A stretch of 35,471 nt of DNA from Candidatus Methanomethylicus oleisabuli (GTDB lineage: Archaea; Thermoproteota; Methanomethylicia; Methanomethylicales; Methanomethylicaceae), in assembly GCA_001717025.1 (NCBI GenBank), contig MAGU01000075.1, forward strand, positions 1-35,471. The letters are read 5' to 3'. How positions within the stretch are numbered: position 1 is the stretch's first letter; every line of letters starts with the position of its first letter. Shown one piece after another: positions 5,949-32,367 of this stretch. The notes below the pieces were generated by a model that saw only the letters and a program-made list of their open reading frames with translations, had not been told where the DNA came from and ran no database searches. Position numbers and translations under genes: made by a program.

Positions 5949-6041
5949 TCTTACCTAACTATGCATTCAAAAATATAGCTTGTTCGCTATCATGGCTATG
6001 GACAATTACTCTTTTATTCTTTGGAGCATTTTAAAATAGTG

Positions 6042-8493: not shown

Positions 8494-8495
8494 CC

Positions 8496-11210: not shown

Positions 11211-11235
11211 ACGCATCTTATCCGAGTGACCAACG

Positions 11236-12741
11236 ATGGGCGCTTTGACTAAAAGGGCATCCGGAGTTCTGTTGCCAATCACCTCGATCCCATCCCGATT
11301 TGGGATAGGCGACCTAGGCCCTGAGGCGCATAATTTTGTCGATAAACTAGCGGAGTCTGGACAGACGTACTGGCAGGTGTTGCCGCTGAACCCAACAAGC
11401 CCGGAGTGGGGCAACTCCCCTTACACATCTTGCTCCAGCTTCGCAGGAAACCAGCTTATGATCAGCCCTGAGCAGATGGTAGCGGACGGTTTGATCGACA
11501 ATGCTGCCGCACCGGATCTCGGGGCACCGCCAGACCGCATCGACTACGCTTCCGTAACCGCTTATAAATCCGCTCTTATGAGGCTGGCATACCGCCAATT
11601 CAAGGAGAACTATAGCAATTTCCGGAGCGATTACGAAGAATTTCTTGCTGGCGAATCTTGGATAAACGACTATGCGCTCTTCAAGGCACTTAGAGCGGGC
11701 AGTGGCATTCCTTGGTACCTCTGGGCTGTGGAAGTCAGGGACCGGGATCCCCGCACCCTCTCCGATAAAGAGTGGATGCTCAGGGAAGATGTTGGTCTTG
11801 AGAAGTTCACGCAGTTCATATTCTTCAGGCAGTGGGCGTCCCTGAAGCAGTATTGCCGGGAGAGGGGCATCTCAGTCATCGGAGACCTTCCATTCTATGT
11901 CAGCTACGACAGTGCTGATGTCTGGACCGACGGCCGGTTCTTCCAACTTGATCCATCAAGGAGGCCGAAGTACGTGAGTGGTGTACCTCCTGACTACTTC
12001 AGCACGAGCGGTCAGCTGTGGGGGCATCCGGTCTACGACTGGGACGCGCTCAGGTCGACCGGCTTCGAGTGGTGGATCAGGCGGGTCACTCACAACATGA
12101 AGCTCTTCGACCTGCTTCGCATCGACCACTTCAGGGGGCTCGTGGCATACTGGGCAGTGCCCGCCAACGAGAAGACCGCGACCAACGGCAGGTGGGAGCG
12201 CGTGCCGTCTGAGTTCTTCAGCACCCTCAGGAGGGCATTCCCTTCGCTCCCCTTCATTGCCGAGGACCTCGGCATAATCACCGACGACGTGCGGCAGGCG
12301 CTCTCGTCGCTTGGTCTGCCCGGCATGAAGGTCCTTATCTTCGCCTTCGACTGCGACGAGAACAACCTGAACCTGCCTAAGAACCACGTCAAAAACTGCG
12401 TAGTCTATACTGGAACTCATGACACAAACACGGTCAAGGGCTGGTTCATGAACGAGGCGAACAACGACGTGCGGCAGTGCCTCTTCCGTCATCTGGGGAG
12501 GGCTGTCTCTGAGGCGGAGGTAAGCTGGGCGCTAATTGAGATGGCATCTGCATCGAACTCGGACCTTTGCATCATCCCGCTCCAGGACATGCTTTCGCTT
12601 GGGTCGGAGGCCCGTCTTAACAACCCCGCCGTCACGCTAAACAATTACGTCTGGCGGTGCGGGGAGGCACATCTGCCCCACGAGCCGTTTGTGCGGCTTG
12701 GCGAGCTGACCAAATCGACAAACCGGTCGCGTAGTTGCTGA
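11236..12741 (+). CDS. malQ: 4-alpha-glucanotransferase (amylomaltase, GH77)
   Basis: RASGVLLPITSIPSRFGIGDLGPEAHNFVDKLAESGQTYWQVLPLNPTSPEWGNSPYTSCSSFAGN; DLPFYVSYDSADVWTD; LLRIDHFRGLVAYWAVP; IAEDLGIITDDV; YTGTHDTNTVKGWF. Confidence 0.95.
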   Translation: MGALTKRASGVLLPITSIPSRFGIGDLGPEAHNFVDKLAESGQTYWQVLPLNPTSPEWGNSPYTSCSSFAGNQLMISPEQMVADGLIDNAAAPDLGAPPDRIDYASVTAYKSALMRLAYRQFKENYSNFRSDYEEFLAGESWINDYALFKALRAGSGIPWYLWAVEVRDRDPRTLSDKEWMLREDVGLEKFTQFIFFRQWASLKQYCRERGISVIGDLPFYVSYDSADVWTDGRFFQLDPSRRPKYVSGVPPDYFSTSGQLWGHPVYDWDALRSTGFEWWIRRVTHNMKLFDLLRIDHFRGLVAYWAVPANEKTATNGRWERVPSEFFSTLRRAFPSLPFIAEDLGIITDDVRQALSSLGLPGMKVLIFAFDCDENNLNLPKNHVKNCVVYTGTHDTNTVKGWFMNEANNDVRQCLFRHLGRAVSEAEVSWALIEMASASNSDLCIIPLQDMLSLGSEARLNNPAVTLNNYVWRCGEAHLPHEPFVRLGELTKSTNRSRSC

Positions 12742-12751
12742 CCTCTCGCTG

Positions 12752-13420
12752 CTAGCTTGAGAAGAACTCCTTCAGCTTATCCTTTAGGAACCAGCCTACG
12801 ACTATGCCGACGGTCACACCCATGAATATCGCCACGCCCCACGCGAATGCTTGGGCGACGGTATACAGGATGGTCACGTCCATGCCAAGCTGGGACATAA
12901 CCAACGTGATCACAATGAAGTACAGAATTACCTTAACGAGGTTCGCTATCATGTCCAGATAGAATGCCTCCCTATGCTCGGGCGCCGCCCCCTTCTTTAT
13001 CAGATCGCCGGCAACGTCAGCGATTATAGCTCCAACCACCAGCATTATTATCCCGCCTATCAGGTTCGGCAGGAATGCAAGCACGCTCTCCACCGGGCCA
13101 TTTATCGCCGGCACATCGATTGCTTTGAAGGCAAGCAGCACGCTGACTGCATATATCGACCACTTCGCAATTGCCTTGAAGAAGTCTGCAGTCGTTAACC
13201 CCGCCCTTATCACCGACCTCCCAATCGCGGTCTTGCGCATAATGGGGTCAACACCGGTCTTTGCGACTATCTTGCCTACCAGCGCACCGACAAGCCTTCC
13301 AATAACCCAGCCCGTAATTACGACTAGCGAGAAGATCAACGCTTTATAGCCGATGGTAATGAGCAGGTCAACAAACTCCGGTAGGCTGATGATTTGGCCT
13401 GCATTAACTAACGATAACAT
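12752..13420 (-). CDS. Mechanosensitive-channel-like membrane protein with conserved TM-helix repeats, lacking an obvious MscS beta domain
   Basis: Multiple hydrophobic helices; VESVLAFLPNLIGGIIMLVVGAIIADVAGDLIKK and AFAWGVAIFMGVTVGIVVGWFLKDKLKEFF resemble TM_helix repeats of MscS-like proteins. Confidence 0.7.
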   Translation of the reverse strand: MLSLVNAGQIISLPEFVDLLITIGYKALIFSLVVITGWVIGRLVGALVGKIVAKTGVDPIMRKTAIGRSVIRAGLTTADFFKAIAKWSIYAVSVLLAFKAIDVPAINGPVESVLAFLPNLIGGIIMLVVGAIIADVAGDLIKKGAAPEHREAFYLDMIANLVKVILYFIVITLVMSQLGMDVTILYTVAQAFAWGVAIFMGVTVGIVVGWFLKDKLKEFFSS

Positions 13421-13556
13421 ATCCAGTCAGAAATCTGTTCGCATGATATTTAAATCTATTTTAGAATCGTTCATAAAAGAAAAACGTTTTTAAATGATCA
13501 GGGGCGCCTCATTAACAGAGGCTTGGAATGAATCATAGCTGATTCGGCCGCCTCGC

Positions 13557-16500
13557 ATGAGGTACCACAGGATGGACGCCTCCGATCAAGCTCCAGACAG
13601 TGTCGCTCTATGGTATAAAGACGCGATAATATATGAGCTCCCCGTGAAGGCATTCTACGACAGTAACGGCGACGGCTACGGCGACTTCAAGGGGCTGACA
13701 GCGAAGCTCGGCTACCTGAAGGATCTCGGCATCACCGCTATATGGCTGCTCCCCTTCTACCCGTCGCCTGAGAAGGACGACGGCTACGACATCTCCGACT
13801 ACTGCGGCTTCAATCCCAAGAACGGGAACAACGACGACTTCAAGGAGTTCTTGGATGAAGCCCATAAGCGAGGGATACGTGTTATCACAGAGCTCGTGCT
13901 CAACCACACCTCCGATCAGCACGAGTGGTTTCAGCGTTCGCGCAGGAGCAGACCCGACTCAAGCGCAAGGCATTACTACGTCTGGAGCGACACCCCAGAC
14001 AAGTTCAAGGAAGCGCGGATCATCTTCAAGGACTTTGAGAGGTCGAACTGGACGTGGGACGATGATGCAAAGGCGTACTTCTGGCATAGGTTCTACTCGC
14101 ACCAGCCCGACCTGAACTATGACAACGAGGAGGTCCAGCAGAAGATTCTCGAGGTCGTTGACTTCTGGCTCGGGCTCGGTGTCGACGGTCTGCGGCTGGA
14201 CGCGGTTCCTTATCTCTTTGAGAGGGAGGGCACCAACTGCGAGAATCTGCCTGAGACTCATGCCTTCCTGAAGCGGCTTAGGGCTCACGTCGATGGAAAA
14301 TTCAGGGGCAAGATGCTCTTGTCCGAGGCGAACCAGTGGCAGACCGACGCTGTGGCATATTTTGGTGACGGCGACGAGTCGCATATGGCATTCCACTTCC
14401 CCCTCATGCCGCGGATCTTCATGTCCATTGACCTTGAGGACCGCTTTCCTATAGTCGACATCCTCGAGAACACGCCCCCAATACCCGCAAACGCGCAGTG
14501 GGCCCTCTTCCTAAGGAACCACGATGAGCTAACGCTGGAGATGGTTACCGACGAGGAGCGGGACTACATGTACCGCGTCTATGCCAAAGACAAGCAGGCG
14601 CGCATCAATCTTGGGATCAGGAGGCGGCTTGCCCCCCTCCTCAAGAACGACCGTAGGAAGATCGAGCTCGTTAACGTCTTGCTCCTCACTCTTCCGGGCA
14701 CCCCTATTCTGTACTATGGCGACGAGATCGGCATGGGCGACAACTACCATCTTGGCGACCGTCACGGCGTCAGGACGCCAATGCAGTGGGATGATACGCT
14801 TAACGCGGGCTTCTCCACGGCAAATCCGCAGAAGCTATACTTGCCAGTGATTACAGACTCAGAATTCAACTATGAAGCAATAAACGTAGACAACCAGATC
14901 AAGAACCAGTCATCGCTCTTCTGGTGGACAAAGAAGATAATCGGGATCCGGAAGTGCTTCAAGGCCTTCGGCAGGGGAGATATCGAGTTCCTATTCCCTG
15001 AGAACAACAAGATACTTGCCTACTTCAGGCGATACGGCAGCGAGGTCCTGCTCATTACAGTCAACCTATCCAAGCGGCGCCAGGTCGCCGAGCTGGACCT
15101 GTCGATGTACGATGGATATATTCCTACCGAGATATCCGGTGGCACTGTATTCCCCAGGATAGGCAAATCTGAGTACATGTTGACCTTTGATCCATTCGGA
15201 TACTATATCTTCTTGCTTACCACGCAGGCGCCAAGCCAGCCGTTCCGTGTCCTCTTGAAGCAAGAGATTCTCCTCGAGAAGAGCTTCGATGAGCTCTTCG
15301 AGGGGGATAATGCAGAGAAGCTAGAGTCCGAGATTCTGCCACACTATCTTAATAACAACAACTGGTTCGGTGCTAGGGGCAAGGACATAGATTACGTCAA
15401 ACTACGCGAGATGTTGCCAATAGACGTCCCAGGCACCGCAATCTCGAGGATACTGATCGTCGACGTCTACTACCAAGAGGGCCTACCCGACTCATATGTC
15501 ATTCCGATCGTCTATTCCGCCGAAGATCGCGTCCAGGCCCTCGCCGCGCAGGTCCCCCAGGCTATACTTGTGAGGATCGTCATGGGCAATGAGAGGGGGG
15601 TCCTCTACGACGGCATGCACGATGATGGATTTAGAGGCGCCATGCTCGGCATCATAGCAAACCGGCGCGTGATCAGGGGCTTAAAGGGCGAGCTGAGGGG
15701 CACGCTTAGGGAGCCATTCAAGGGGGTCATCGACACGTCACCAGTCACGGAATCCATGTTGATCAGCCCCGCGCATGTCAATACATTGGTCGTCTACAAT
15801 GACAACGCAATACTCAAGCTATTCAGGCGCGCCGAGGAGGGGATAAACCCCGATGTTGAGATTGGCGACTTCTTGGCAAAGGCATCGTTTGCATATGCGC
15901 CGACCATCTTGGGAGACATCAGCTATCACGAAATTGGCTCTGAGCCTAGCAGCCTGGCCGTCCTACAGTGCTTCGTGAAGAATGACGGGGATGCTTGGTC
16001 CCTCTGCATGAGGGAGGTTAAGCGCTACTACGAGAAGCTGACTCAGAGCGGTCAGGATAAGATAAACCCGCCCCCTCCTTTGACATTCGAGGCGAGAGCG
16101 AAGATCCCAGAGCAGATGGTCGACCTGATGGGGAGACCATTCCTCAGTCTGATCTCGATGCTTGGGTCAAGGACGGGCGAGTTACATAAGACCTTGATGT
16201 CTGGGGCGAGCGACCCTGCCTTCACACCCGAGTCGTTCAATTACCTCTCGCTCTTTGCCCTCTCCCAGTCAATGGCCAGCTACGCAAGGCGAACCCTTCA
16301 GTGGGCCATGTCCTCGAAGAGCCTCAGCAAAGAGCACAGCAGTGATATACAGTTCTTGGTCAAGAACAAGGCGCTCATCGAAGACACCTTCAAGGCACTG
16401 CGTCATGAGAAGATCGATTCGCTGAAGATACGAATTCACGGTGATTATCATCTTCAGCATGTCCTCTTCACGGGTTGCGACTTCATAATAATTGATTTCG

Positions 16501-16877
16501 AGGGCGAACCGACGAGGTCAATAAGTGAGAGGAGGCTGAAGCGCTCGCCCCTCAGGGACGTCGCTGGAATGATCCGTTCATTCCACTACGCCGCATTCGC
16601 CGGGCTTAGAGAGATGCCTCTTGATCCATCCACCTCCATGTCGCTGGAGCGTTGGGCGGACCAGTGGTACAAATGTTGCGCCATCGCCTTCCTTAAATCT
16701 TACACTCAGACCGTGAACGGGACCGGTCTTATACCCTCTGATGAGCCTTCATTCAAAAACCTTTTGAATGCGTTTCTGCTTGAGAAGAGCATCTACGAAC
16801 TGGCATACGAGCTGAACAACAGGCCCGCATGGGCATCCATTCCGATCCGGGGAATCTGGGACTTGCTTGGTGTCTAG
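13557..16877 (+). CDS. treS: Trehalose synthase / maltokinase fusion (TreS-Mak)
   Basis: N-term GH13_16: WYKDAIIYELPVKAFYDSNGDGYGDFKGLTAKLGYLKDLGITAIWLLPFYPSP; DGLRLDAVPYLFEREGTNCENLPETHAFLKRLR; FLRNHDELTLEMV. C-term kinase: IRIHGDYHLQHVLFTGCDFIIIDFEGEPTRSISERRLKRSPLRDVAGMIRSFHYAAF. Confidence 0.94.
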   Translation: MRYHRMDASDQAPDSVALWYKDAIIYELPVKAFYDSNGDGYGDFKGLTAKLGYLKDLGITAIWLLPFYPSPEKDDGYDISDYCGFNPKNGNNDDFKEFLDEAHKRGIRVITELVLNHTSDQHEWFQRSRRSRPDSSARHYYVWSDTPDKFKEARIIFKDFERSNWTWDDDAKAYFWHRFYSHQPDLNYDNEEVQQKILEVVDFWLGLGVDGLRLDAVPYLFEREGTNCENLPETHAFLKRLRAHVDGKFRGKMLLSEANQWQTDAVAYFGDGDESHMAFHFPLMPRIFMSIDLEDRFPIVDILENTPPIPANAQWALFLRNHDELTLEMVTDEERDYMYRVYAKDKQARINLGIRRRLAPLLKNDRRKIELVNVLLLTLPGTPILYYGDEIGMGDNYHLGDRHGVRTPMQWDDTLNAGFSTANPQKLYLPVITDSEFNYEAINVDNQIKNQSSLFWWTKKIIGIRKCFKAFGRGDIEFLFPENNKILAYFRRYGSEVLLITVNLSKRRQVAELDLSMYDGYIPTEISGGTVFPRIGKSEYMLTFDPFGYYIFLLTTQAPSQPFRVLLKQEILLEKSFDELFEGDNAEKLESEILPHYLNNNNWFGARGKDIDYVKLREMLPIDVPGTAISRILIVDVYYQEGLPDSYVIPIVYSAEDRVQALAAQVPQAILVRIVMGNERGVLYDGMHDDGFRGAMLGIIANRRVIRGLKGELRGTLREPFKGVIDTSPVTESMLISPAHVNTLVVYNDNAILKLFRRAEEGINPDVEIGDFLAKASFAYAPTILGDISYHEIGSEPSSLAVLQCFVKNDGDAWSLCMREVKRYYEKLTQSGQDKINPPPPLTFEARAKIPEQMVDLMGRPFLSLISMLGSRTGELHKTLMSGASDPAFTPESFNYLSLFALSQSMASYARRTLQWAMSSKSLSKEHSSDIQFLVKNKALIEDTFKALRHEKIDSLKIRIHGDYHLQHVLFTGCDFIIIDFEGEPTRSISERRLKRSPLRDVAGMIRSFHYAAFAGLREMPLDPSTSMSLERWADQWYKCCAIAFLKSYTQTVNGTGLIPSDEPSFKNLLNAFLLEKSIYELAYELNNRPAWASIPIRGIWDLLGV

Positions 16878-18819
16878 AGTGTCCTCAAAGAGAGCTTCAC
16901 CCAGAGCGATGAGTGCTGGCGAATGCAGCCTCCTGACCAGCTACGACGTATATCTGTTCAGGCAGGGCAAGCACTTCAGGCTGTACGAGAAGCTAGGCTC
17001 GCATTCTGTGGAAGCAGAGGGCGAGCAGGGCGTATACTTTGCGGTTTGGGCCCCAAACGCGAGGCTAGTTTCTGTGATAGGCGACTTCAACTCATGGGAC
17101 CCCTCTAGCAACCCCATGAGGCTGCACGACAACGCCTCAGGGATCTGGGAGGCGTTCGTCCCCGGTGTTGAGGGTGGGTCGCTATACAAATACAGCATCA
17201 CGCCTAAGAACCTCGACCGGGCGCATGAAAAGGCAGACCCGTTTGCCTTCCTATGCGAGCCCCCTCCAAGGACCGCCTCGGTCGTTTGGGATGCAAGCTA
17301 CTCTTGGCAGGACTCTGCGTGGATGGACAACAGGAGGGCGCACAACTCCCTCTCCGCCCCCATATCCGCATACGAGGTCCATCTTGGCTCGTGGAGGCGG
17401 AGCGCGTGCGGCAAGAGCCGCTGGCCGACCTATGTTGAGCTGGCTGACGGGCTGTCGGAGTACGTAGGCGATATGGGCTACTCCCATGTTGAGCTAATGC
17501 CTGTTATGGAGCACCCATTTTACGGCTCATGGGGATACCAGATAACGGGTTACTTTGCCCCGACTAGCCGCTTCGGGACGCCCGCCGACTTCAAGTACTT
17601 TATTGAAAAGCTGCACCGGTCTGGCATAGGCGTGATACTAGACTGGGTCCCGTCCCATTTCCCGACCGACCCGCACGGATTGGCGTTCTTTGACGGCACC
17701 TGCCTCTACGAATACGCCGACAGGAGGAAGCGGTTCCACCCCGATTGGAAGAGCAACATCTTCGACTACAAAAAGAATGAGGTCCGGTCATTCTTGATAA
17801 GCAACGCGCTCTTCTGGCTAGACAGATACCATGCCGATGGTTTGAGGGTTGACGCGGTGGCGTCAATGCTGTACCTCGACTACTCCCGCAAGAACGGCGA
17901 ATGGCTCCCGAATGAGTACGGGGGCAAAGAGAACCTTGAGGCAATCTCTTTCCTTCAGCTGCTAAACGAGGTGGCGTACGGCTCATATCCTGATGTTCAG
18001 ATGATCGCGGAGGAATCGACCGCATGGCCTATGGTGTCGTGGCCTATATATGTGGGGGGATTGGGGTTCGGCATGAAGTGGAATATGGGATGGATGCATG
18101 ACATCCTGGACTACATGTCGAAGGATCCGCTGTATCGGAAGTACCACCACAACCAGCTCACCTTCAGCCTTTGTTACGCATTCACCGAGAACTTCATGCT
18201 ATCGTTATCCCATGATGAGGTGGTGTATGGGAAGGGCTCGTTGCTGAAGAAGATGCCGGGGGACCTGTGGCAGAAGTTCGCAAACCTCAGGCTGCTCTAT
18301 GGCTATATGTATGGGCACCCTGGGAAAAAGACCCTCTTTATGGGTAACGACTTCGGTCAGGCTGGGGAGTGGTCACACGAGCAATTTTTGGATTGGGGGC
18401 TGCTCGATCAGCCATTGCATGGTGGGCTTAGGCGATGGGTGCGCGACCTGAACTCAGCATATGGGCGCGAGCACGCACTCTACGATCTAGACTTTTCTCC
18501 GGCTGGCTTTGAGTGGGTAGACGCAAACGACTGGGTGCACAGCGTCATAAGCTTCATCAGGAACAGCGCCGGCGGCACAGAAAAGATCCTGGTCGCCTGT
18601 AACTTCACGCCTGTCCCGAGAACGGGCTACCGCCTCGGCGTCCCTTGCGGAGGAACATGGTTAGAAATTCTGAACAGCGACGCATGCTGCTATGGGGGGA
18701 GCGGCTATGGCAACTTAGGCAAGGTCGAGACAACGCCGATTCCATTGCACGGTCGGCCATCCTCCGTTTCCCTCACCATCCCTCCGCTAGGCGTTGTCTT
18801 TCTGAAGCATACTGAATGA
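16867..18819 (+). CDS. glgB: 1,4-alpha-glucan branching enzyme (GH13)
   Basis: GVYFAVWAPNARLVSVIGDFNSWD; VELMPVMEHPFYGSWGYQITGYFAPTSRFGTPADFKYFIEKLHRSGIGVILDWVPSHFPTDPHGLAFFDGTCLYEYAD; DGLRVDAVASMLYLDYSR; LSLSHDEVVYGKGSLLKKMPGD. The true start may be ATG 16909. Confidence 0.95.
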   Translation: MVSRVSSKRASPRAMSAGECSLLTSYDVYLFRQGKHFRLYEKLGSHSVEAEGEQGVYFAVWAPNARLVSVIGDFNSWDPSSNPMRLHDNASGIWEAFVPGVEGGSLYKYSITPKNLDRAHEKADPFAFLCEPPPRTASVVWDASYSWQDSAWMDNRRAHNSLSAPISAYEVHLGSWRRSACGKSRWPTYVELADGLSEYVGDMGYSHVELMPVMEHPFYGSWGYQITGYFAPTSRFGTPADFKYFIEKLHRSGIGVILDWVPSHFPTDPHGLAFFDGTCLYEYADRRKRFHPDWKSNIFDYKKNEVRSFLISNALFWLDRYHADGLRVDAVASMLYLDYSRKNGEWLPNEYGGKENLEAISFLQLLNEVAYGSYPDVQMIAEESTAWPMVSWPIYVGGLGFGMKWNMGWMHDILDYMSKDPLYRKYHHNQLTFSLCYAFTENFMLSLSHDEVVYGKGSLLKKMPGDLWQKFANLRLLYGYMYGHPGKKTLFMGNDFGQAGEWSHEQFLDWGLLDQPLHGGLRRWVRDLNSAYGREHALYDLDFSPAGFEWVDANDWVHSVISFIRNSAGGTEKILVACNFTPVPRTGYRLGVPCGGTWLEILNSDACCYGGSGYGNLGKVETTPIPLHGRPSSVSLTIPPLGVVFLKHTE

Positions 18820-18882
18820 GGAACTGCTGCGCCTCCTTATGCAGTGATGCAATATATGAAAAAGAATACATGCCGTCAGCAC

Positions 18883-18903
18883 GGCTTGGGGACAAGCCTT
18901 TTT
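18883..18903 (+). terminator. Intrinsic terminator-like hairpin (GGCTTG-GGGA-CAAGCC-TTTTT)
   Basis: Perfect 6-bp stem with 4-nt loop followed by five T residues, 64 nt after the glgB stop. Confidence 0.55.
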
Positions 18904-18962
18904 GTACAGTTGGACGAAAACACACAAATGGCGTCGCATGTATTAACTATGGTTGATTAAAA

Positions 18963-19937
18963 ATGGCATCTCTCATACCAGAGCGAAACCTATCCGTCGG
19001 CATTGATATGGGCGGCAGTTGGATCAGAGTAGCGCTTGGAAATCGAAGCGGAAGAATCATTCGGAAGTCAGTTGTACCAATGGGGGCCAATGATGCTGCC
19101 ACCTTCATCAAGCATCTTGACGATCTGATTCGGAGGGTCGCTGGGGACTCGCTAGAGCGAGTAGTTGGCATAGGGATCGGCGCAGCTGGTAGGCTGGACC
19201 TTAAGGATGGCTCGATAATATTCTCTCCCCACACATGCTTGCGGGACATGCATATAAAATCCGAACTCGAATCATGTACAGGCATAGACGTCTGCCTCCT
19301 CAACGACTGTGCGGCAGCGGTAATAGCCGAGCATCTGATAGGCGCCGGCAAGGGCTGTGAGAACCTTGTCTATGTTGGCATCGGAACCGGAATCGGGGGC
19401 GGGATAATGGTGAACGATCGGTTGCTCCTTGGAAAGGACGGCAATGCACACGAAATAGGGCACATGATAATCGATATCGAAGGTGGCATCGAATGCGAAT
19501 GCGGCGGCTTTGGGCACTGGGAGGCATATACTTCGGGGAGCGGCCTTCCCAAGCTTGCGATGCTACTTGCAGACCGATACCGTCAAGACTCGCCGTTTTT
19601 GGAACGCGTGCGGGGGGGTCAAACGACTGCCAAGGATATCTTCAAAGCCGCTTCGTGCAACGATCATTTTGCAGAGCATATCATTGAGGTTGCAGCAGAT
19701 ATCAATTCAAAGGCATTGGCGAACTTGGTGAACTTGTATGACCCAGAGCTGATAACCATCGGTGGAGGGCTTGCAATAAAAAACAAGAACCTTGTCATAT
19801 TGCCCATCTCCGAAAAGTTGCCCGCCTACTCGTTCAACCGGGTACCGCGTGTCCTTCCAACGCCGTTGGGCGAGGACGCTCCACTACTCGGAGCAATAAT
19901 GTCGGTCTATTATCCGTCCAACATCCATGCAACCTGA
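18963..19937 (+). CDS. ROK family sugar kinase (probable glucokinase)
   Basis: LSVGIDMGGSWIRVALGNRSGRI; GIGTGIGGGIMVNDRLLLGKDGNAHEIGHMIID; IECECGGFGHWEAYTSG ROK Cys motif. Confidence 0.88.
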   Translation: MASLIPERNLSVGIDMGGSWIRVALGNRSGRIIRKSVVPMGANDAATFIKHLDDLIRRVAGDSLERVVGIGIGAAGRLDLKDGSIIFSPHTCLRDMHIKSELESCTGIDVCLLNDCAAAVIAEHLIGAGKGCENLVYVGIGTGIGGGIMVNDRLLLGKDGNAHEIGHMIIDIEGGIECECGGFGHWEAYTSGSGLPKLAMLLADRYRQDSPFLERVRGGQTTAKDIFKAASCNDHFAEHIIEVAADINSKALANLVNLYDPELITIGGGLAIKNKNLVILPISEKLPAYSFNRVPRVLPTPLGEDAPLLGAIMSVYYPSNIHAT

Positions 19938-19947
19938 TCAAGCTGCA

Positions 19948-21477
19948 TCATCTATCACCGAGTTGACGCTTTGCCTCTATGATTGCTGCATTGATGCTGT
20001 CCAGCATCTCCTTGCGGAGTTCCTCTGAAGTCCCTCCCTTGCCCTCTAACTTCCTGAACTCGGTTGCCAGTTCGATGCATCCTAGGATCTCGTCGGTCCA
20101 CTTGCTCAGGTCCCCGCGCATAACGTGGAATGCTAAAGCCTCCTTTCTGACAGTTCTGACCGCATCCCTCAGCTCAAGCAGATTTCGTGCAGTCGCCTCT
20201 GAAGGCAGCGCGAAGCCCGCGGCGAAATGAAACGCGTGCCCCTCGGGCAGCTCCCCGTATAGCATCCTGAAGTATCTCGATCTCTTGTCCGCGACTGCAT
20301 ACAACCTTTGCCGGAAGTCTGTGAGCGCCCACAACATGCTTATGAACGCTTCTACAGGGCTGTCGAAGTGGGAGAAGTAAGCATGAATCGCGCCGGTCCC
20401 CCCTCCCTTAGCGCTCATGTATTGGAAGTTGTCGCTCTGGGTGAAGAGCCTCCATATCCTGACCATCCTCTCGTTTGAGGTCTCAACTATAGGTCTCAGG
20501 TACTTCACGGTCTCGAAGCAGTACCTCTGCCTGTCATTCCCTAGCCATGCCGAGAGGTCCTTCTCCAGGTCGGCGTCCGATACAGCACTCTCTATTTCCA
20601 CCACGCCCACCGGCTTCAGCCCATTGGATGCCTCCGACGGCGTCTCGACCGCGATGTCGTCCCTGCCATCAAAAGCAATTGGCAGTTCCTTCAGGAAATC
20701 CCCAGCGCCAACATCCTTGGAGAAGTGCTCCCCAAATGTCTCTAGGTTGAACTCGATGAGTACAATGTCGCCTTCAGCACGCGACAGGCCATCCACGAAT
20801 TCCTTGGCTGCCATCCCCGGCACCTGCCGATCAGGGCGGGCGAACCTGAAGTTGACCATGTCCGACTGAATGTAGTTCCTCGTAAGCACCTTGACCGGGA
20901 AGGCTTTCGCCACGTATGCATAGTTTGGGGACCTCCAGCTGAGCAGCCTCTCTGAACCGTCTACTATCACGTTGCCGTAGCCCATCTTGCACAATGCCTC
21001 TGCAATGCTATTGCTGTAGATATGCCCTGTGTTCTTGAATGTTGCCGCGTCCACACCGAAGAGCTTCTTTATTGCCCTTCTATGCATCTCTGCCTGCTGC
21101 ATGAACTCCTTCTCGTCAATAAGGCATGCAAGCGAATGATAGTATGTCTGCCCTACAAACTCGCAGCGGCCTGATCTGGCAAGCCCATCGAGCAGATCTA
21201 TGACCTCGGGGCACCACTCCATGCTCTGCTCCATTAGTGTTCCGGATATGCTGATGGCACATTTGAATCCGTGGTGCGCGATCCCCTGCGATATCGCCTT
21301 CAGCCCCGGCAGATAACAGTTCTTGGCAACCCTCAGGAAGACCTTTCTGTTAAGCTCATCGTCGAAAAATTCCGCCTCAAGATCAGCGCCATTCAAGGTC
21401 TTTTTGCCGAAGATGCGCCTCAGGCGTTTCGGCTGATGCATCTCGAAAAGAGGTACTACAAGTAACAATTTTGACAC
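19948..21477 (-). CDS. GH57 alpha-amylase-like protein, predicted catalytically degenerate
   Basis: LFEMHQPKRLRRIF; ISGTLMEQSMEWCPEVIDLL; EFVGQTYYHSLACL; FKNTGHIYSNSIAEAL; IEFNLETFGEHFSKD. Fold motifs are present but nucleophile and acid/base positions are substituted. Confidence 0.85.
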   Translation of the reverse strand: MSKLLLVVPLFEMHQPKRLRRIFGKKTLNGADLEAEFFDDELNRKVFLRVAKNCYLPGLKAISQGIAHHGFKCAISISGTLMEQSMEWCPEVIDLLDGLARSGRCEFVGQTYYHSLACLIDEKEFMQQAEMHRRAIKKLFGVDAATFKNTGHIYSNSIAEALCKMGYGNVIVDGSERLLSWRSPNYAYVAKAFPVKVLTRNYIQSDMVNFRFARPDRQVPGMAAKEFVDGLSRAEGDIVLIEFNLETFGEHFSKDVGAGDFLKELPIAFDGRDDIAVETPSEASNGLKPVGVVEIESAVSDADLEKDLSAWLGNDRQRYCFETVKYLRPIVETSNERMVRIWRLFTQSDNFQYMSAKGGGTGAIHAYFSHFDSPVEAFISMLWALTDFRQRLYAVADKRSRYFRMLYGELPEGHAFHFAAGFALPSEATARNLLELRDAVRTVRKEALAFHVMRGDLSKWTDEILGCIELATEFRKLEGKGGTSEELRKEMLDSINAAIIEAKRQLGDR

Positions 21478-21568
21478 TGCTTAATGTTAGGTCTTGCCTT
21501 ATTTCAATTTGGCGATCACTGCCAGCCATCCGCCTCAGGGCGATCCAAAGATTTGGATGCGCTGCCGC

Positions 21569-22783
21569 TCAGTTCCTCTTCCCGACAAGCTCTATGTGCA
21601 TCCTCAGATAGTTCATGATCCCCTTCGTTATCAGGAAATTCAACCTGACATGCCTCATTCCGTTCTGGCCAAGCTCCCTAGCAAGCCAGGGCCTCTTCAG
21701 AAGGAGCACTGCCTTCTCGGCGCCCTCCTGATAATTCCCTATAAGGTAGCCGGTTGTCCCGTCTATAACCTGTAGCGGGATGCCTCCTGCCCGCGTGCCG
21801 ATGACCGGCACGCCCTTCCATAGCGCCTCGGTAACCGTGAGCCCAAATCCCTCCCGCTTTGACATCTGGAGGGCAACGCTGAATGCCCTCTGGAAAGCAT
21901 TGACCTCAAAATCACCGACGCCGTCCAAATTCGTAAGCACAAATATGTCCTTCTCTTTAGCCGCAAATGCCATCGCCTTATCATACCACTCCTTGCCCTC
22001 AGGGTCATCCTTGGCAAAGGAGCCGATCAGAACCAGCTGTGCTGTGCCGATCCTCCCCTTCACCATTCTGTAGACTTCCATTGCGCCAAGGGGGTCTTTC
22101 CATGGATCGAAACGCCCCACTTGGCCGATGATCGGTCTAGCCGGGTCAACGCCATAGCGATTTAGTACCTTCTCAATCTCTGAGATGCCGATTTTAGCGT
22201 TCTTAGTAGCGAGGGGGTCTATCGTTGGATAGTCGATAAGCACCTGCGTATCTAGGCTCTTCGGTATATACCTCTCGAGCGAGAAGATGGCTATATTATA
22301 CCTCCTGATAAGTTCCATCAGTGGATCCCAGACGCTGGCATTTGGGGATGAGGTGTCGATGTGGCAACGCCATGCCCACTTCCCCCCTCTTCTGTAATCA
22401 ATAAGTGGTAGTGGTTGCGGGTCATGGATGACCACGACATCCCCCTCAAGGTTCAATACGGATGAATTGAATCGAACGGTATCAAAGTAATGCTTCCACT
22501 CCGCCTCGCCAATGGCAACGCCTTGGTTGCCCTGCAGTGCATTATGCATCTTCTTTGTAATGGTGAAGAACTCGGCGTCCCCCTTCAGCGTCTGCCAATT
22601 GGCGTCGATATCAAGTGACCTTGCCAACGGAATTATTCTGTTCAGCATCTCGGCCACTCCGCCGCCGTATGGCGTCGCGTTCACGTGCGCTACCTTCTCG
22701 CCCTTTACAAGCTCTGCTAGTTGCTTTATGCCTTCGACTTCGCTCTCCCCAACAATGGAGGCATAATCCTCTATTCTCACCAT
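21569..22783 (-). CDS. treT: GT4 glycosyltransferase, trehalose glycosyltransferring synthase (TreT) type
   Basis: VAHVNATPYGGGVAEMLNRIIPLARSLDIDANWQTLKGDAEFFTITKKMHNALQG; VVIHDPQPLPLI; WRCHIDTSSPN; QVGRFDPWKDPLGAMEVYRMV; SKREGFGLTVTEALWKGVPVIGTRAGGIPLQV. Confidence 0.85.
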   Translation of the reverse strand: MVRIEDYASIVGESEVEGIKQLAELVKGEKVAHVNATPYGGGVAEMLNRIIPLARSLDIDANWQTLKGDAEFFTITKKMHNALQGNQGVAIGEAEWKHYFDTVRFNSSVLNLEGDVVVIHDPQPLPLIDYRRGGKWAWRCHIDTSSPNASVWDPLMELIRRYNIAIFSLERYIPKSLDTQVLIDYPTIDPLATKNAKIGISEIEKVLNRYGVDPARPIIGQVGRFDPWKDPLGAMEVYRMVKGRIGTAQLVLIGSFAKDDPEGKEWYDKAMAFAAKEKDIFVLTNLDGVGDFEVNAFQRAFSVALQMSKREGFGLTVTEALWKGVPVIGTRAGGIPLQVIDGTTGYLIGNYQEGAEKAVLLLKRPWLARELGQNGMRHVRLNFLITKGIMNYLRMHIELVGKRN

Positions 22784-27510: not shown

Positions 27511-27588
27511 GGGCCGGTCGTCTAGTCTGGTTAGGATACTGCCCTGACACGGCAGTGGTCACCGGTTCGAATCCGGTCCGGCCCACCA
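27511..27588 (+). tRNA. tRNA-Val (anticodon GAC), CCA encoded
   Basis: GGGCCGG...CCGGCCC acceptor; anticodon stem CTGCC/GGCAG with loop CTGACAC; T-arm ACCGG-TTCGAAT-CCGGT; 3' ACCA followed by a T run. Confidence 0.95.
27569..27588 (+). repeat. attL (tRNA-Val 3' end)
   Basis: GAATCCGGTCCGGCCCACCA, identical to 32348-32367. Confidence 0.88.
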
Positions 27589-28480
27589 TACATCCTTTTT
27601 TGTCATCCCCGCCATCACCCGTTGAAAAAAGTTTCATCAAAAAATATCCCCAAGACGCCAGTTCAGTGGGCGGTACCGTACGCGGAGGAGGGCTCGAGGG
27701 CTTTGTCCAATTCTGCGAGGTGGACCGCGGTCTGAAGCGCGTGACGGCGATGAACCACCGGATGCTGATCCTGAGGGTCCTCGCCAGGTGCGGAGGGGAG
27801 CCTGACACTGAATGCATAAGGTCGTTCCTGGCGGGCATAACGAACCGCAACTACCGGAACAACTACGTCAAGTCTCTGAGGGTCTACTTCAGGGACTACA
27901 TGCACGAAGGCGGCCTCGTGGGGTCGTTCAGGCTGACGGAGGGGGACGCCTGCCCGCCGAGGCTCTTCACAAAAGACGAGCTCAGGAGGTTCTACGGCGC
28001 GCTGGACGGCCCCGAGGAGCGTGCCCTCTTCCTGCTCTACGCGGCGACCGGGAGGAGGCGGATGGAGGTGCCTGCGCTCAGGCTGGAGGATGTCGACTTC
28101 GGGAAGCGGATGCTCCTGCCCAACAGGAACAGCAGCACGAAGCACACGTGGTATTCCTTCTACAACGGGGAAGCTGCACGGGCGCTCGATGAGTGTATGG
28201 CCATAAGGAGGAAGAAAAACGACTTTCTCTTCACCCTCAACTCGCAGAAGAAGGACTACATACTCGCCGGGGCGCAGGAAAAGACGGGGCTCGGCATCAC
28301 CCCCCGCGTGCTGCGCTTCTGGTTCGCCAACGAGATGGCGAGGCTCGGCGTGCAGGACAGGTTTATCGACGCCTTCCAGGGGAGGTCCCGAGGAAGGTCC
28401 TGGCGAGGCACTACACCGACTACTCCATGGAGACCCTGAAGCGGATCTACGACAAGGCGGGGCTGAAGGTGCTGGAGTGA
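27589..28480 (+). pseudogene. Tyrosine recombinase / integrase, catalytic part (int(C)-like), frameshifted near the C-terminus
   Basis: SAM-like N-domain LEGFVQFCEVDRGLKRVTAMNHRMLILRVL; ATGRRRMEVPALRLEDVDF; FWFANEMARLG; frame change near 28379-28385, then VPRKVLARHYTDYSMETLKRIYDKAGLKVLE (catalytic Tyr region). Confidence 0.82.
28454..28473 (+). repeat. 20-bp direct repeat copy 1 (integrase 3' coding end)
   Basis: AAGGCGGGGCTGAAGGTGCT, identical to 29051-29070. Confidence 0.85.
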
Positions 28481-28599
28481 AGCCTCCCCTCAGTCATTAC
28501 TGCGTATTCCCTGTTGACCTCGATCCCCGTGCACGCCCTCCCCAGCTCCGATCTGGGCCTCGGGGGACAGGGCAAGGACGGGCCTGAAGATTCTTGATT

Positions 28600-28637
28600 A
28601 TTGTTATAAGTCTGCAATATTGTTATAAGTCTGCAAT
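28600..28637. repeat. Two perfect tandem 19-bp repeats ATTGTTATAAGTCTGCAAT
   Basis: Copies at 28600-28618 and 28619-28637, 25 bp upstream of the small membrane protein start. Confidence 0.9.
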
Positions 28638-28662
28638 AAAGATATAGTGATAAGGATAAAAA

Positions 28663-28899
28663 ATGCTACTGCAACAGATAATGACCCCTACAATAGGGCA
28701 ACTTGCTTGGTCGCTGGTTGGCGGGACATTGCTCCTACCCGTGATTTGGTTCATCGTTGCAATATTGTGCTGCATCTGGGTTTACAGAGACGCGGAAAAA
28801 CGAGGAATGAGCGGGGTATTGTGGCTCATTGTCGTGCTGATTATAGGTATCATTGGACTAATAATATACTTGATTGTCAGAAAGGGCAAAAAGACATAG
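28663..28899 (+). CDS. Small two-TM membrane protein (PLDc_N-like / hypothetical)
   Basis: MLLQQIMTPTIGQLAWSLVGGTLLLPVIWFIVAILCCIWVYRDAEKRGMSGVLWLIVVLIIGIIGLIIYLIVRKGKKT; typical small integral membrane family with WVYRDAEKRG. Confidence 0.7.
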   Translation: MLLQQIMTPTIGQLAWSLVGGTLLLPVIWFIVAILCCIWVYRDAEKRGMSGVLWLIVVLIIGIIGLIIYLIVRKGKKT

Positions 28900-29050
28900 C
28901 CGACCGGACAGCCGCCACCGCCGTAAAAAGATCCATCCTATTTTTTTTTTATTTCATTATGATGAGATATGGGCAAAAAGGAAATCCGTTAGAGGTTGGC
29001 ATTGAATATTATCTGATGCGCCTCATTCCCTCTGCCCCCGCTCCATTAAT

Positions 29051-29070
29051 AAGGCGGGGCTGAAGGTGCT
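29051..29070 (+). repeat. 20-bp direct repeat copy 2, abutting the methyltransferase 3' end
   Basis: AAGGCGGGGCTGAAGGTGCT, identical to 28454-28473. Confidence 0.85.
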
Positions 29071-29073
29071 TTC

Positions 29074-30093
29074 CTAGATCCTCTTCACGGCAACTAGCCC
29101 ATCTATCAACCGCCTTATTGGTGCAGTGGGGGGCTTTACCCTCTCGAGCCTTGCCATTGCCATCTCGACGTAATTGGGGTTCAGGTCGCACCCTAGGTAC
29201 CTCCTCCCCAAAGCCTTGGCCGCGCAGAGTGTCGTGCCGGAGCCTGAGAACGGATCGAAGACAATGCCTCCGGGAGGGCATGAAGAGAGGATGGGCTTTA
29301 TGCACAGGTCGGGAGGATAGATTGCGAAGTGGGGGCCGTGGAATGGTTTGAGGGTCACGTCCCAGACGTCGCCTGGGTTTGCGCCCTTTGGATTTGGGAG
29401 TTTCCTCCGGGCGAAGTGGCGGATTATGTCTGAATCGCGCTTAGGCTGTCCGGACGATAGGTACAGCTGAGCTTTTCCCTTACCATAGCCTGAACACTCC
29501 ATTCTCTCACGCGTGCTTTGCTTTATTGGCACCCTGATTGCGTCTAGATCATAGTAGTAGCGACGGGACTTTACGAAGTGGTAGACGTACTCGTACGCTG
29601 AGGTGAGCCTGTCCATTACGGAGGATGGGAGGTGGTTCCGTTTCCACCAGACATTCTTGTTTCGGAGGATCCACCCGTCCTCCTGCATGGCGATCATGAC
29701 GCGCTCTGGGATGCCTAGGAGTTGTTTGTGCTGGAGCCATTTGCTGTCTGAGATCAATCCCCAATCCCTGTTATTTGGCATCGTCTGCAGGCCTGGCCAC
29801 TTGATGGCTTTGCCTTCCTTCTGTGGCCCTCGGGTATTTGACCCAAAGTAAGAGTCGCCGATGTTCAGATAAAACGAGCCGCTATTTTTGAGCACCCTCT
29901 TAATCTCGTGGAATGTGCACGACAAACGATGGATATACTCCAAGGGGTGACACTCGAGCCCAATCTGCCCATCGACGCCATAATCCCTTAGATTCCAGTA
30001 CGGAGGGGGTGTCATTACGAGATCCACGGATCCGGTGGAAAGCGACTGGATGAATGAGAGGCACTCGGAATGGACGTTGACGTCGACTGGCAT
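29074..30093 (-). CDS. DNA (cytosine-N4)-type methyltransferase, TSPPYW family with variant motif IV (TPPPYW)
   Basis: MPVDVNVHSECLSFIQSLSTGSVDLVMTPPPYWNLRDYG; VWDVTLKPFHGPHFAIYPPDLCIKPILSSCPPGGIVFDPFSGSGTTLCAAKALGRRYLGCDLNPNYVEMA. ATG at 30093 is preferred to 30435 of the track. Confidence 0.88.
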   Translation of the reverse strand: MPVDVNVHSECLSFIQSLSTGSVDLVMTPPPYWNLRDYGVDGQIGLECHPLEYIHRLSCTFHEIKRVLKNSGSFYLNIGDSYFGSNTRGPQKEGKAIKWPGLQTMPNNRDWGLISDSKWLQHKQLLGIPERVMIAMQEDGWILRNKNVWWKRNHLPSSVMDRLTSAYEYVYHFVKSRRYYYDLDAIRVPIKQSTRERMECSGYGKGKAQLYLSSGQPKRDSDIIRHFARRKLPNPKGANPGDVWDVTLKPFHGPHFAIYPPDLCIKPILSSCPPGGIVFDPFSGSGTTLCAAKALGRRYLGCDLNPNYVEMAMARLERVKPPTAPIRRLIDGLVAVKRI

Positions 30094-30440
30094 GTCGCAT
30101 ACAATCCGATTCGAGCCCTCGCCAATCACGCTGGAACATGCGCATGGAGGGTTATAGCAATTTACCAACAGTGTGCTGGTGGTGAGATGAAAGTATATTT
30201 CATATGTGTGCGCACCTTCTATCCATATACATAATATGTTAATGTTAGAGTCGGCGGGGGGAGGGGGTGATGGTGCAATCACCATAGATTTTACAGTCTG
30301 TTCAGCATATTGTAAACCGCAGATAATGCTTCTCAGCCTTTTTTGACCCTCCCCCTGGCTGGACGGCGACCGGGCGGGGCGGCACTCAGGGTCATGGGAC
30401 TTTGTTAAATGGTTGGAGGTTTTACTCCGGAGCAAAAAAG

Positions 30441-30878
30441 CTAAGCCCGCTCGAGGAGGAGCCGGGCGAAGTATGACTGCCAGGACAGGGATATGTAGCG
30501 GGCCATGACCTTAGAGAGCCCTGCGGAGCGGAGGTCCCAGCCGCAGTAGTAGGCGAGGTGGGCGGGCTCGAAGCCGTAGAATGAGGCAAGCTCGGATGCC
30601 CTGAGGTGCCTGAGGAAATGCACACCTGCGTTGCGCTCGTGGGCGGGAACTTTGGCGCCGTGGACGAGCTGCGGGTCTATCCCGTACGTCAGGCATGCGA
30701 AGGCCTCTGAGGCGTAGCTGTGGAGGGTCTGCCGGGTGAAGGGGAAGGCGAGCTCCGGACCCCGAACTATGAAATAGTCGAGGAGCAGGCCGCGACCGGC
30801 ATCCTTGACACTTCTTCGCCCATACTTTGCACCGCTGAATACTGTGTCACTTTCGCCTAATTTCTGCTCCCTGACCAT
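30441..30878 (-). CDS. Tyrosine recombinase-like C-terminal domain (orphan/truncated integrase)
   Basis: VHFLRHLRASELASFYGFEPAHLAYYCGW...KVMARYISLSWQSYFARLL resembles HxxR...GW...Y recombinase C-termini; no N-terminal domain is evident upstream. Confidence 0.6.
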   Translation of the reverse strand: MVREQKLGESDTVFSGAKYGRRSVKDAGRGLLLDYFIVRGPELAFPFTRQTLHSYASEAFACLTYGIDPQLVHGAKVPAHERNAGVHFLRHLRASELASFYGFEPAHLAYYCGWDLRSAGLSKVMARYISLSWQSYFARLLLERA

Positions 30879-31208
30879 CAGAACGACATCGTTCCGGGGG
30901 CGGCCGGGCAGGGATTCAGTTTCGGGAGGGGGTGAGAGAGCGAAAGAATAATGCAGACTTTCTTAAATATTAATTAACTATTCCATAAATAAACGTATTA
31001 TATTACACATTTTTATCATTTTTTTATTAAAAAAGTTCACTAAAAACCAAAGACTTTAAATCGCAGCGATTCGAATGATGATTTGTGGTCAGGAGGGTTG
31101 CACATGCGACCCGTTATGGTCTTTCGACCATACCTGGCTGCATCTTTTTGTTTCAAATAAAAAAAGTATAGAATACGTTATAATTATCTTAACAACTTAT
31201 TTTGAACC

Positions 31209-31955
31209 ATGTATTTGTTGTATATGGATGAATCAGGCGATCCCGGTCAATTCACTAAAGGGCAGAACACATTTGTGTTAGGGGGCTTGGCAGTTCACGA
31301 AGGACAAGTTCGCATTTTGACCGACCGTATGAACGCAATGCAGGAAGCATTCTTTCCTGGAATAAAATTAGCGATTCCGTTCCACGCAACTGAACTGCGA
31401 GCAGGTAAAGGCTGCTTCGATAAAATGCCTGCAGAAAAAAGAAATAAAATTTTTGATGCAATATATGACATCATAAGTTCCATGCGTTTTCCATACCTGC
31501 TGACCTTCGCTACTGCGATAGACATCAGCTCGGTGGAAAACCCTTAACAAGCACTTCATGACGTATTCGAAGACGTGTGCACCAGATTTAATTTCTTCCT
31601 AATCAGGGAACATAAATCTGATCATCCAAATAAAGGGCTTCTACTCATTGACCAAGCCCACACGCCGCATTACCGCCAATTCATTGACGATTTCCGCAAG
31701 TCAGGGACAAAATATGGCTCTGTTAACCATGTGATAGACATCCCTTATTTCGCTGGCAGGCATGATACACGGGTGCTGCAGTTAGCTGATTTTTGTGCTT
31801 ATGCCGTATTCAGATATTACGAAAATAATGATACCCAATACCTCAATAAAATCATCAAGTGCTTCGACAAACGGCCAACTCTAGGAGTGCTCGATGGCTT
31901 AAAGCATATCACTAAAAATATACCATGCGCATGCCTTGCGTGTTCAATGCGATGA
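31209..31955 (+). pseudogene. DUF3800-family protein interrupted by an in-frame TAA
   Basis: MYLLYMDESGDPGQFTKGQNTFVLGGLAVHE...SSVENP*QALHDVFEDVCTRFNFFLIREHK...GRHDTRVLQLADFCAYAVFRYYEN; TAA at 31545-31547, with the same frame continuing to 31955. Confidence 0.82.
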
Positions 31956-32176
31956 TGTCGTCATTCAAACCAAATAACCGTTCGTTTACCGCTCCTGTGA
32001 TGCGAGCAAATCAGCATGATTCGGTTATGCCAAGGTAGGATTGTGCGCTGCTGGTGCATGGGCTACCGCATTGTTCGCCCGCTCATCCGAGCACCCTGAG
32101 CCCTGCATCCTGTGCTCTGCCTCCAGACCGCTAGGTTCTTGTCCCGCCGGGGCGAGTATACCCCTGAGGGATCAGT

Positions 32177-32367
32177 ATGCCGAAGAGGGGCTACAGGTCG
32201 ATGACGCTCCCAACGAAGCTCTACAGGGAGCTGGCCAGGTGCGCGGACAGGTACGGTACGACCTGCCCCGGAGCTGGTCAGGTGCCTGCTCGACATTATG
32301 GAGGGGGATGCAGTTTTTGATGAAACTTTTGCGGCAAAAGTTTCTGAGAATCCGGTCCGGCCCACCA
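32177..32367 (+). pseudogene. RHH-like N-terminal fragment running into attR; candidate integrase int(N), frameshifted
   Basis: SD-like GAGGGA before ATG 32177: MPKRGYRSMTLPTKLYRELARCADRYGTTCP, then in frame 0 PELVRCLLDIMEGDAVFDETFAAKVSENPVRPT. One extra C in CCCC (32266-32269) would explain the shift. Confidence 0.6.
32348..32367 (+). repeat. attR (duplicate of the tRNA-Val 3' end)
   Basis: GAATCCGGTCCGGCCCACCA, perfect 20-bp copy in the absence of a full tRNA. Confidence 0.88.

Follow-up and report, generated by a model that had tools for sequence, protein, structure and literature searches.

We propose, at a probability of roughly 0.7, that a mobile element integrated in the genome of a Methanomethyliaceae archaeon encodes a suicide integrase with a ribbon-helix-helix (RHH) arm-binding domain, and that integration parts this domain and a left site from the catalytic half and the right sites. 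The element lies in the window (the whole stretch of 35,471 nucleotides that was analysed; contig C71, part of a 1.37-Mb genome that is 95% complete) as an insert of about 4.8 kb at a tRNA-Val(GAC) gene (27511–27588), the last 20 bp of which are repeated exactly and in direct orientation on the far side (27569–27588 / 32348–32367). In G002, a genome of the same genus, homology to the left flank stops at the tRNA 3′ end (27588), homology to the right flank resumes outside the element from about 32547, and no counterpart of the element was found at the matching site. Because the flanks match up to and from these positions and the insert has no match between them, synteny identifies 27589–32367 as an insertion. 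The locus comprises the following features:

27511..27588, + strand: tRNA-Val (GAC), the integration target, whose 3′ 20 bp are the att core (ARAGORN)
27569..27588, + strand: attL core, GAATCCGGTCCGGCCCACCA, from the T-loop to the tRNA 3′ end (exact repeat; G002 left-flank synteny ends here)
27569..28480, + strand: int(C), catalytic half of the SSV-type integrase, with one frameshift near 28385 (joined read PF00589 1.9e-8, PF16795 4.9e-6)
28663..28899, + strand: cargo, 78-aa membrane protein, PLDc_N-like
29074..30435, − strand: cargo, DNA N6/N4 methyltransferase (PF01555 4.4e-47; phrog_67)
30441..30878, − strand: cargo, 145-aa ORF with no family match
31209..31955, + strand: cargo, DUF3800 gene with an in-frame stop at 31545–31547
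32177..32367, + strand: int(N), RHH half, MPKRGYRSMTLP...DRYGTTCPELVRCLLDIMEGDAVFDETFAAKVSENPVRPT, with one frameshift at 32266–32269 (ORF reading, RHH alignment)
32348..32367, + strand: attR core (exact repeat)

The true start of the methyltransferase probably lies downstream of the longest-ORF start.

A tyrosine-recombinase frame leaves tRNA-Val as TGSNPVRPTIHPF..., and because this C-half reads ...TGSNPVRPTIHPFLSS... out of the tRNA and the N-half frame enters the right repeat as FAAKVSENPVRPT, both halves are in the same frame. A first-pass annotation, made from the sequence alone, had claimed that the 20-bp repeat carries the halves in frame across the att core, and direct reading of both frames bears this out. 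The N-half starts at ATG 32177, with an SD-like GAGGGATC upstream. The window copy is damaged twice, with one frameshift per half: the N-half is broken at the CCCC run 32266–32269, as the annotation had correctly stated, and the C-half is frameshifted near 28385, which it had overlooked.

That the two halves in the window are one integrase gene split by integration, as the annotation had interpreted them, is well supported by reconstruction from joins. The C-halves of relatives read out of tRNA-Arg, Val, Gly, Glu, Ala, Thr, Lys and Phe genes, and 12 of the 14 that were scored (those whose core-binding region has a locatable beginning) stay open across the tRNA in the integrase frame, the other two having an indel or a stop; N-halves were found separately, via an alignment of the RHH part. 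Joined without any correction, the halves of an undamaged pair on a single contig (G021:C123, 43-bp core) give an uninterrupted RHH-integrase of 367 aa, and those of a second pair (G015, contigs C26 and C10, 51-bp core) one of 361 aa; the shared core suggests that the two G015 contigs represent one element. Three frames are possible across a tRNA, and lineages differ in the one they use (GSNP, GFES, VRIP). The N- and C-halves of each lineage nevertheless agree, and where a lineage has an alternative frame, it recurs in N- and C-half alike (GFES/GFKS for tRNA-Gly, VRIP for tRNA-Arg-CCT). The open C-halves together with the two uncorrected joins argue that the frame relation is not due to chance. 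Two decayed same-contig pairs, G010:C153 and G014:C6, keep repeats of 33 and 34 bp; in G010:C153 the N-half contains a stop and is not in frame with the C-half, which counts against our preferred explanation.

We also sought cases that speak against a single gene. In the family we saw no catalytic homologue with an N-terminus of its own inside the element, consistent with the 12 of 14 open frames, and no RHH ORF that ends before attP was found, the undamaged pairs running into the core in frame. The joined gene envisaged in the first-pass annotation can be reconstructed intact from both undamaged pairs, but an unsplit, episomal copy was found neither among viral contigs or phages nor in 398 genomes of the phylum. 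Searches of the viral contigs with the catalytic and RHH alignments gave zero matches, and the plasmid collection yielded only matches below 60% identity, to distant archaeal-plasmid and bacterial integrases. A 431-aa open frame in G216 that begins with an RHH was considered as an unsplit RHH-integrase but rejected: in the roughly 107 aa read, the RHH gives way to a metal-ribbon-like stretch of CPKCGE type, and no integrase was recognised. An RHH ORF at G021:C90, lacking a recognisable att core, was left out of the pairs. Among named genomes, relatives of the catalytic half come mostly from Candidatus Methanomethylicota (Methanosuratincola, Methanomethyliaceae); distant ones carry the labels Bathyarchaeota, Thaumarchaeota and others. 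Methanomethyliaceae emerge as hosts of many tRNA-integrating elements, with a wide range of tRNA targets and numerous decayed remnants.

By its split gene and its match to PF16795, the SSV-type family, the integrase is placed with the SSV type. The gene is divided between attL and attR, with the att core within the coding frame, and all nine C-halves of alignment A2 match both PF16795 and PF00589 (best PF16795 6.7e-11); the PF16795 match of the window C-half (4.9e-6) is right at the cut-off. Within the R...KXXR...Y signature, the R, a K further along and the R of LR are conserved among the members, the Y of HYTDY is retained in all except the decayed C75 copy, and the K of KXXR varies between K, Q and R.

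The first-pass annotation had described the N-terminus as RHH-like, and three kinds of evidence support an assignment of the N-terminal half to the RHH domains. The AF2 model (mean pLDDT 74; 93 over residues 11–30), a monomer without an assigned strand, has an extended N-terminal segment followed by helices 13–26 and 30–39. Its best Foldseek matches are Arc and CopG, with probabilities of about 0.93–0.97 and E-values of about 0.2–0.7, which are at least 0.2 because the model is short. A profile of the ten N-halves matches AvtR (1e-7), CopG (0.002) and ORF56 (0.011) in the PDB; the top-scoring PDB profile matches were designed repeat proteins and were discarded as repeat artefacts. In Pfam, RHH_5 is found in eight of the ten N-halves and RHH_1 in two, with a best E-value of 7.9e-5; these single-sequence matches fall under the curated cut-offs, as does that of the window N-half (RHH_5, 0.0055).

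Candidate accessory palindromes are present on both att arms in four pairs, at −64 to −93 and +68 to +112. The palindrome, GTAC[G/C]GTAC, occurs within the RHH codons and once or twice shortly past the core, at site-to-core distances of −93/+89 (window), −64/+76/+100, −70/+89/+112 and −64/+68/+92; the window copy thus has a single site on the C side. Together with a pair of inner arms, the sites in the window are:

27627..27643, + strand: right inner arm AAAAGTTTCATCAAAAA, an exact inverted copy of 32314–32330
27673..27681, + strand: right outer candidate arm site GTACCGTAC, 89 bp past the core
32251..32259, + strand: left outer candidate arm site GTACGGTAC, in RHH codons R25-Y-G-T28, 93 bp before the core
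32314..32330, + strand: left inner arm TTTTTGATGAAACTTTT, which also forms a local palindrome with 32336–32344 (AAAAGTTTC)

The inner arms are a 17-bp perfect inverted repeat about the core, and 0 of 20,000 base shuffles of the core flanks reached 17 bp, although this mononucleotide control is a mild test. Within the window, GTAC[GC]GTAC occurs exclusively in the two integrase halves. In the whole 1.37-Mb genome it occurs at five places, four of them in integrase halves: two here, two at the tRNA-Gly int(C) on C75, and the fifth in an apparent PRPP-synthetase gene. The twin form, with 8–22 bp between copies, occurs eight times in the 22 family genomes, always adjoining int(C), and zero times in the reversed control. 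The palindrome is absent from the closest catalytic relative (tRNA-Glu, 62% identity) and from the tRNA-Lys one; this weighs against our proposal, as do the frameshifts and the single C-side site of the window copy. In seven N-halves the site spans codons 25–28, and the third positions of codons 25–27 are invariant, whereas most other third positions have pairwise identities of 0.14–0.71. Because third positions are frozen in the N-halves, and the C-side copies are translated in differing frames across lineages (CTVQ, YGTD), the conservation of the site points to selection on the DNA rather than on the peptide.

Based on these patterns, we propose a mechanism in which (i) attP would lie inside the gene of the circular form, directly after the RHH domain; (ii) the RHH domain would most likely act as the arm-binding domain, its dimers holding GTAC[G/C]GTAC about 65–95 bp either side of the core, with one predicted arm site in the RHH codons and one or two past the core; (iii) the catalytic part would act on the core and perhaps also on the inner inverted arms; and (iv) recombination with the 3′ end of tRNA-Val would split the gene into int(N), with the RHH domain, at attR and int(C), with the core-binding and catalytic parts, at attL. 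We infer the binding of the sites by the RHH domain, their bridging by its dimers and any role in directionality from sequence. Because integration breaks the gene, excision would depend on an undamaged integrase supplied in trans, a proposal already made for other suicide integrases (PMC8371274).

The association between RHH class and motif is relevant to what the head may recognise. Genes of a second RHH class (MPKPGY and similar) enter tRNA-Val in antisense, like SSV1, and have a twin palindrome of another sequence, GGACNGTCC; in the 22 genomes all four places with this twin adjoin MPKPGY-class RHH genes. Free-standing RHH relatives in the phylum have TAC[GC]GTA within about 50 bp 5′ of the start at 11 of the 13 loci first examined, well above chance given a background of roughly 0.5 sites per kb in this set. 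These relatives were chosen by protein score, the 13 loci being the best-scoring part of the match list and several to many of them orthologues of one gene, and the motif had been taken from the integrases beforehand, so that the test was directed. In a wider set the motif lies at −60..+2 in 9 of 37 loci, mainly those with a GYK/GFK/GYR strand, and is therefore not general to RHH matches. These data support, but do not prove, that this RHH subfamily reads GTAC half-sites.

The main alternative is an ordinary SSV-type suicide integrase whose RHH domain serves dimerisation or autoregulation, with the GTACSGTAC sites as operators of int transcription and the int(N) stub at attR still a repressor. 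The promoter-proximal motifs of the free-standing relatives do resemble self-repression, int(N) retains its start and upstream region at attR, and the SSV2 N-terminus is reported to control multimerisation (PMC8371274). The integrase sites, however, lie within the gene, to either side of the core, and not 5′ of the start, and the twin sites, which stay with int(C), are parted from the int promoter by integration; we regard this explanation as unlikely. Considerably less probable is that the palindromes bind another element- or host-encoded factor and that the RHH head does something else. Xis- or IHF-like factors do bend attP in lambda-type systems, but here the palindrome changes together with the RHH class, and the same core motif is found next to the genes of some free-standing RHH relatives. 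A further idea is that the RHH ORF is a separate gene by attR that runs into the tRNA-like repeat only by coincidence, and that the integrase is of type II, with its start in the tRNA or beyond it. This could draw on the frameshifted window copy and the missing unsplit copy (viral contigs, phages, 398 genomes of the phylum), but given the C-halves open through the tRNA, the intact joined ORFs in two pairs and the agreement of the halves even in lineages using different frames, it is already disfavoured and very improbable.

An arm-binding RHH head would set this suicide integrase apart from the characterised systems it otherwise resembles. In the SSV1 integrase (ORF D-335, fusellovirus), attP likewise lies in the gene, which tRNA integration splits into int(N) and int(C), and PF16795 and an N-terminal segment of about 65 aa before att are also shared. 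The SSV1 N-terminus, however, is PF07935 rather than RHH, and its att core is antisense to the tRNA, whereas the gene described here reads sense through the tRNA, so that int(C) lies at the intact tRNA. The pTN3 and pT26-2 suicide integrases of Thermococcales, compared by description, are similarly split on integration, match PF16795 and use several tRNA targets, but neither RHH nor arm sites are mentioned for them in the passages of PMC8371274 and PMC6972569 consulted. The pNOB8/pARN-type integrases of Sulfolobales, about 26–28% identical in the aligned part, are archaeal tyrosine integrases with an N-terminal HTH instead of RHH; in plasmid pARN3 the gene is intact and single, and this head excluded it as an unsplit RHH-integrase relative. 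AvtR, CopG and ORF56 share fold and sequence profile with the head, but are free-standing repressors, unfused to a recombinase.

The lambda/Tn916-type integrases have an N-terminal DNA-binding domain and accessory sites flanking the core, and the integrase described here would work like such an arm-binding integrase while standing outside the known AB families. The AB domains of six subgroups form one Pfam clan, CL0081, for which a common origin has been proposed (PMC8138268); the lambda/Tn916 AB domains belong to it, whereas no known AB domain was among the matches listed for the joined proteins at E<=1. We take the RHH head, by inference, to be an arm-binding domain without relation to the lambda type. 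The first-pass annotation had called an RHH head on such a recombinase unusual, and we found none described on an SSV-type integrase in the literature searched, from which subscription papers were mostly excluded; a broader search showed no such case among the titles listed, and we found none in the review of archaeal tyrosine recombinases PMC8371274, which does not contain the word 'ribbon'. We lean, with somewhat less confidence than for the mechanism itself, towards the view that Methanomethyliaceae suicide integrases independently gained a repressor-type RHH as arm-binding domain whose arm sites flank att within the coding sequence; integration would then separate the domain and left site from the catalytic domain and right sites. 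If true, tyrosine recombinases came under arm-binding control on more than one occasion and by way of unrelated folds. Suicide integrases are reported only from archaea, and N-terminal DNA recognition has been described for few of them (PMC8371274); the recognisable DNA-binding domain, the candidate sites and the undamaged relatives make such recognition directly testable here.

As to the nature of these elements, no capsid or replication family was found among the scanned proteins of the undamaged 21-kb G021 element, which can therefore be assigned neither as a virus nor as a plasmid; its cargo includes a restriction-modification-type enzyme and a winged-helix protein. In relatives the att core begins at the anticodon loop or close to it; in the window it begins at the T-loop, and a related relic at G002:C83 resembles the window in this respect.

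A second class of ribbon-helix-helix (RHH) domains, marked by MPKPGY or a similar sequence, is accompanied by the twin GGACNGTCC. Its members lie in related family genomes:

G000, contig C5 (L174)
G021, contig C1 (L129)
G002, contig C9 (L137)
G021, contig C123, 2805-2956 (L044)

In L174, L129 and L137, an intact tRNA adjoins the N-half, from which this class is known here, and the RHH frames read into the antisense tRNA-Val; this placement of the N-half at the intact tRNA resembles that of SSV1. The G002 locus (L137, 3592-4315) carries two tRNA-Val(GAC) genes, spaced 646 bp apart and separated by a mini-insert, at the chromosomal site equivalent to that of the window's element.

Besides the copy in the window, its own genome contains at least four more copies or remnants of the catalytic half, int(C), located at tRNA-Glu, Gly, Val and Thr, and the majority are decayed:

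C30, 35979-36908 (L037)
C75, 19269-19769 (L176), HYTDY motif changed to HCTD
C16, 14476-14913 (L040)
C30, 1314-1915 (L133)

Within the window's element, an in-frame stop breaks the DUF3800 gene (31209-31955), which is a further sign of decay. The undamaged 21-kb element of G021 (C123, L043/L044) contains a block of about 4 kb in two tandem copies (about 14375-18467 and 18457-22084), representing either an assembly duplication or a real repeat. Left of the tRNA in the window lies a cluster of large genes (4029-22783) that, judged by eye, resemble genes for amylase, trehalose synthesis and branching enzyme.

At some RHH genes that stand free in other families of the phylum (L149-L165, L190-L221), TAC[GC]GTA lies directly ahead of the start codon as a possible self-operator. 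Within one orthologous group of free-standing RHH genes, GTACTTTAAAGTACGGTA is conserved upstream of the start.
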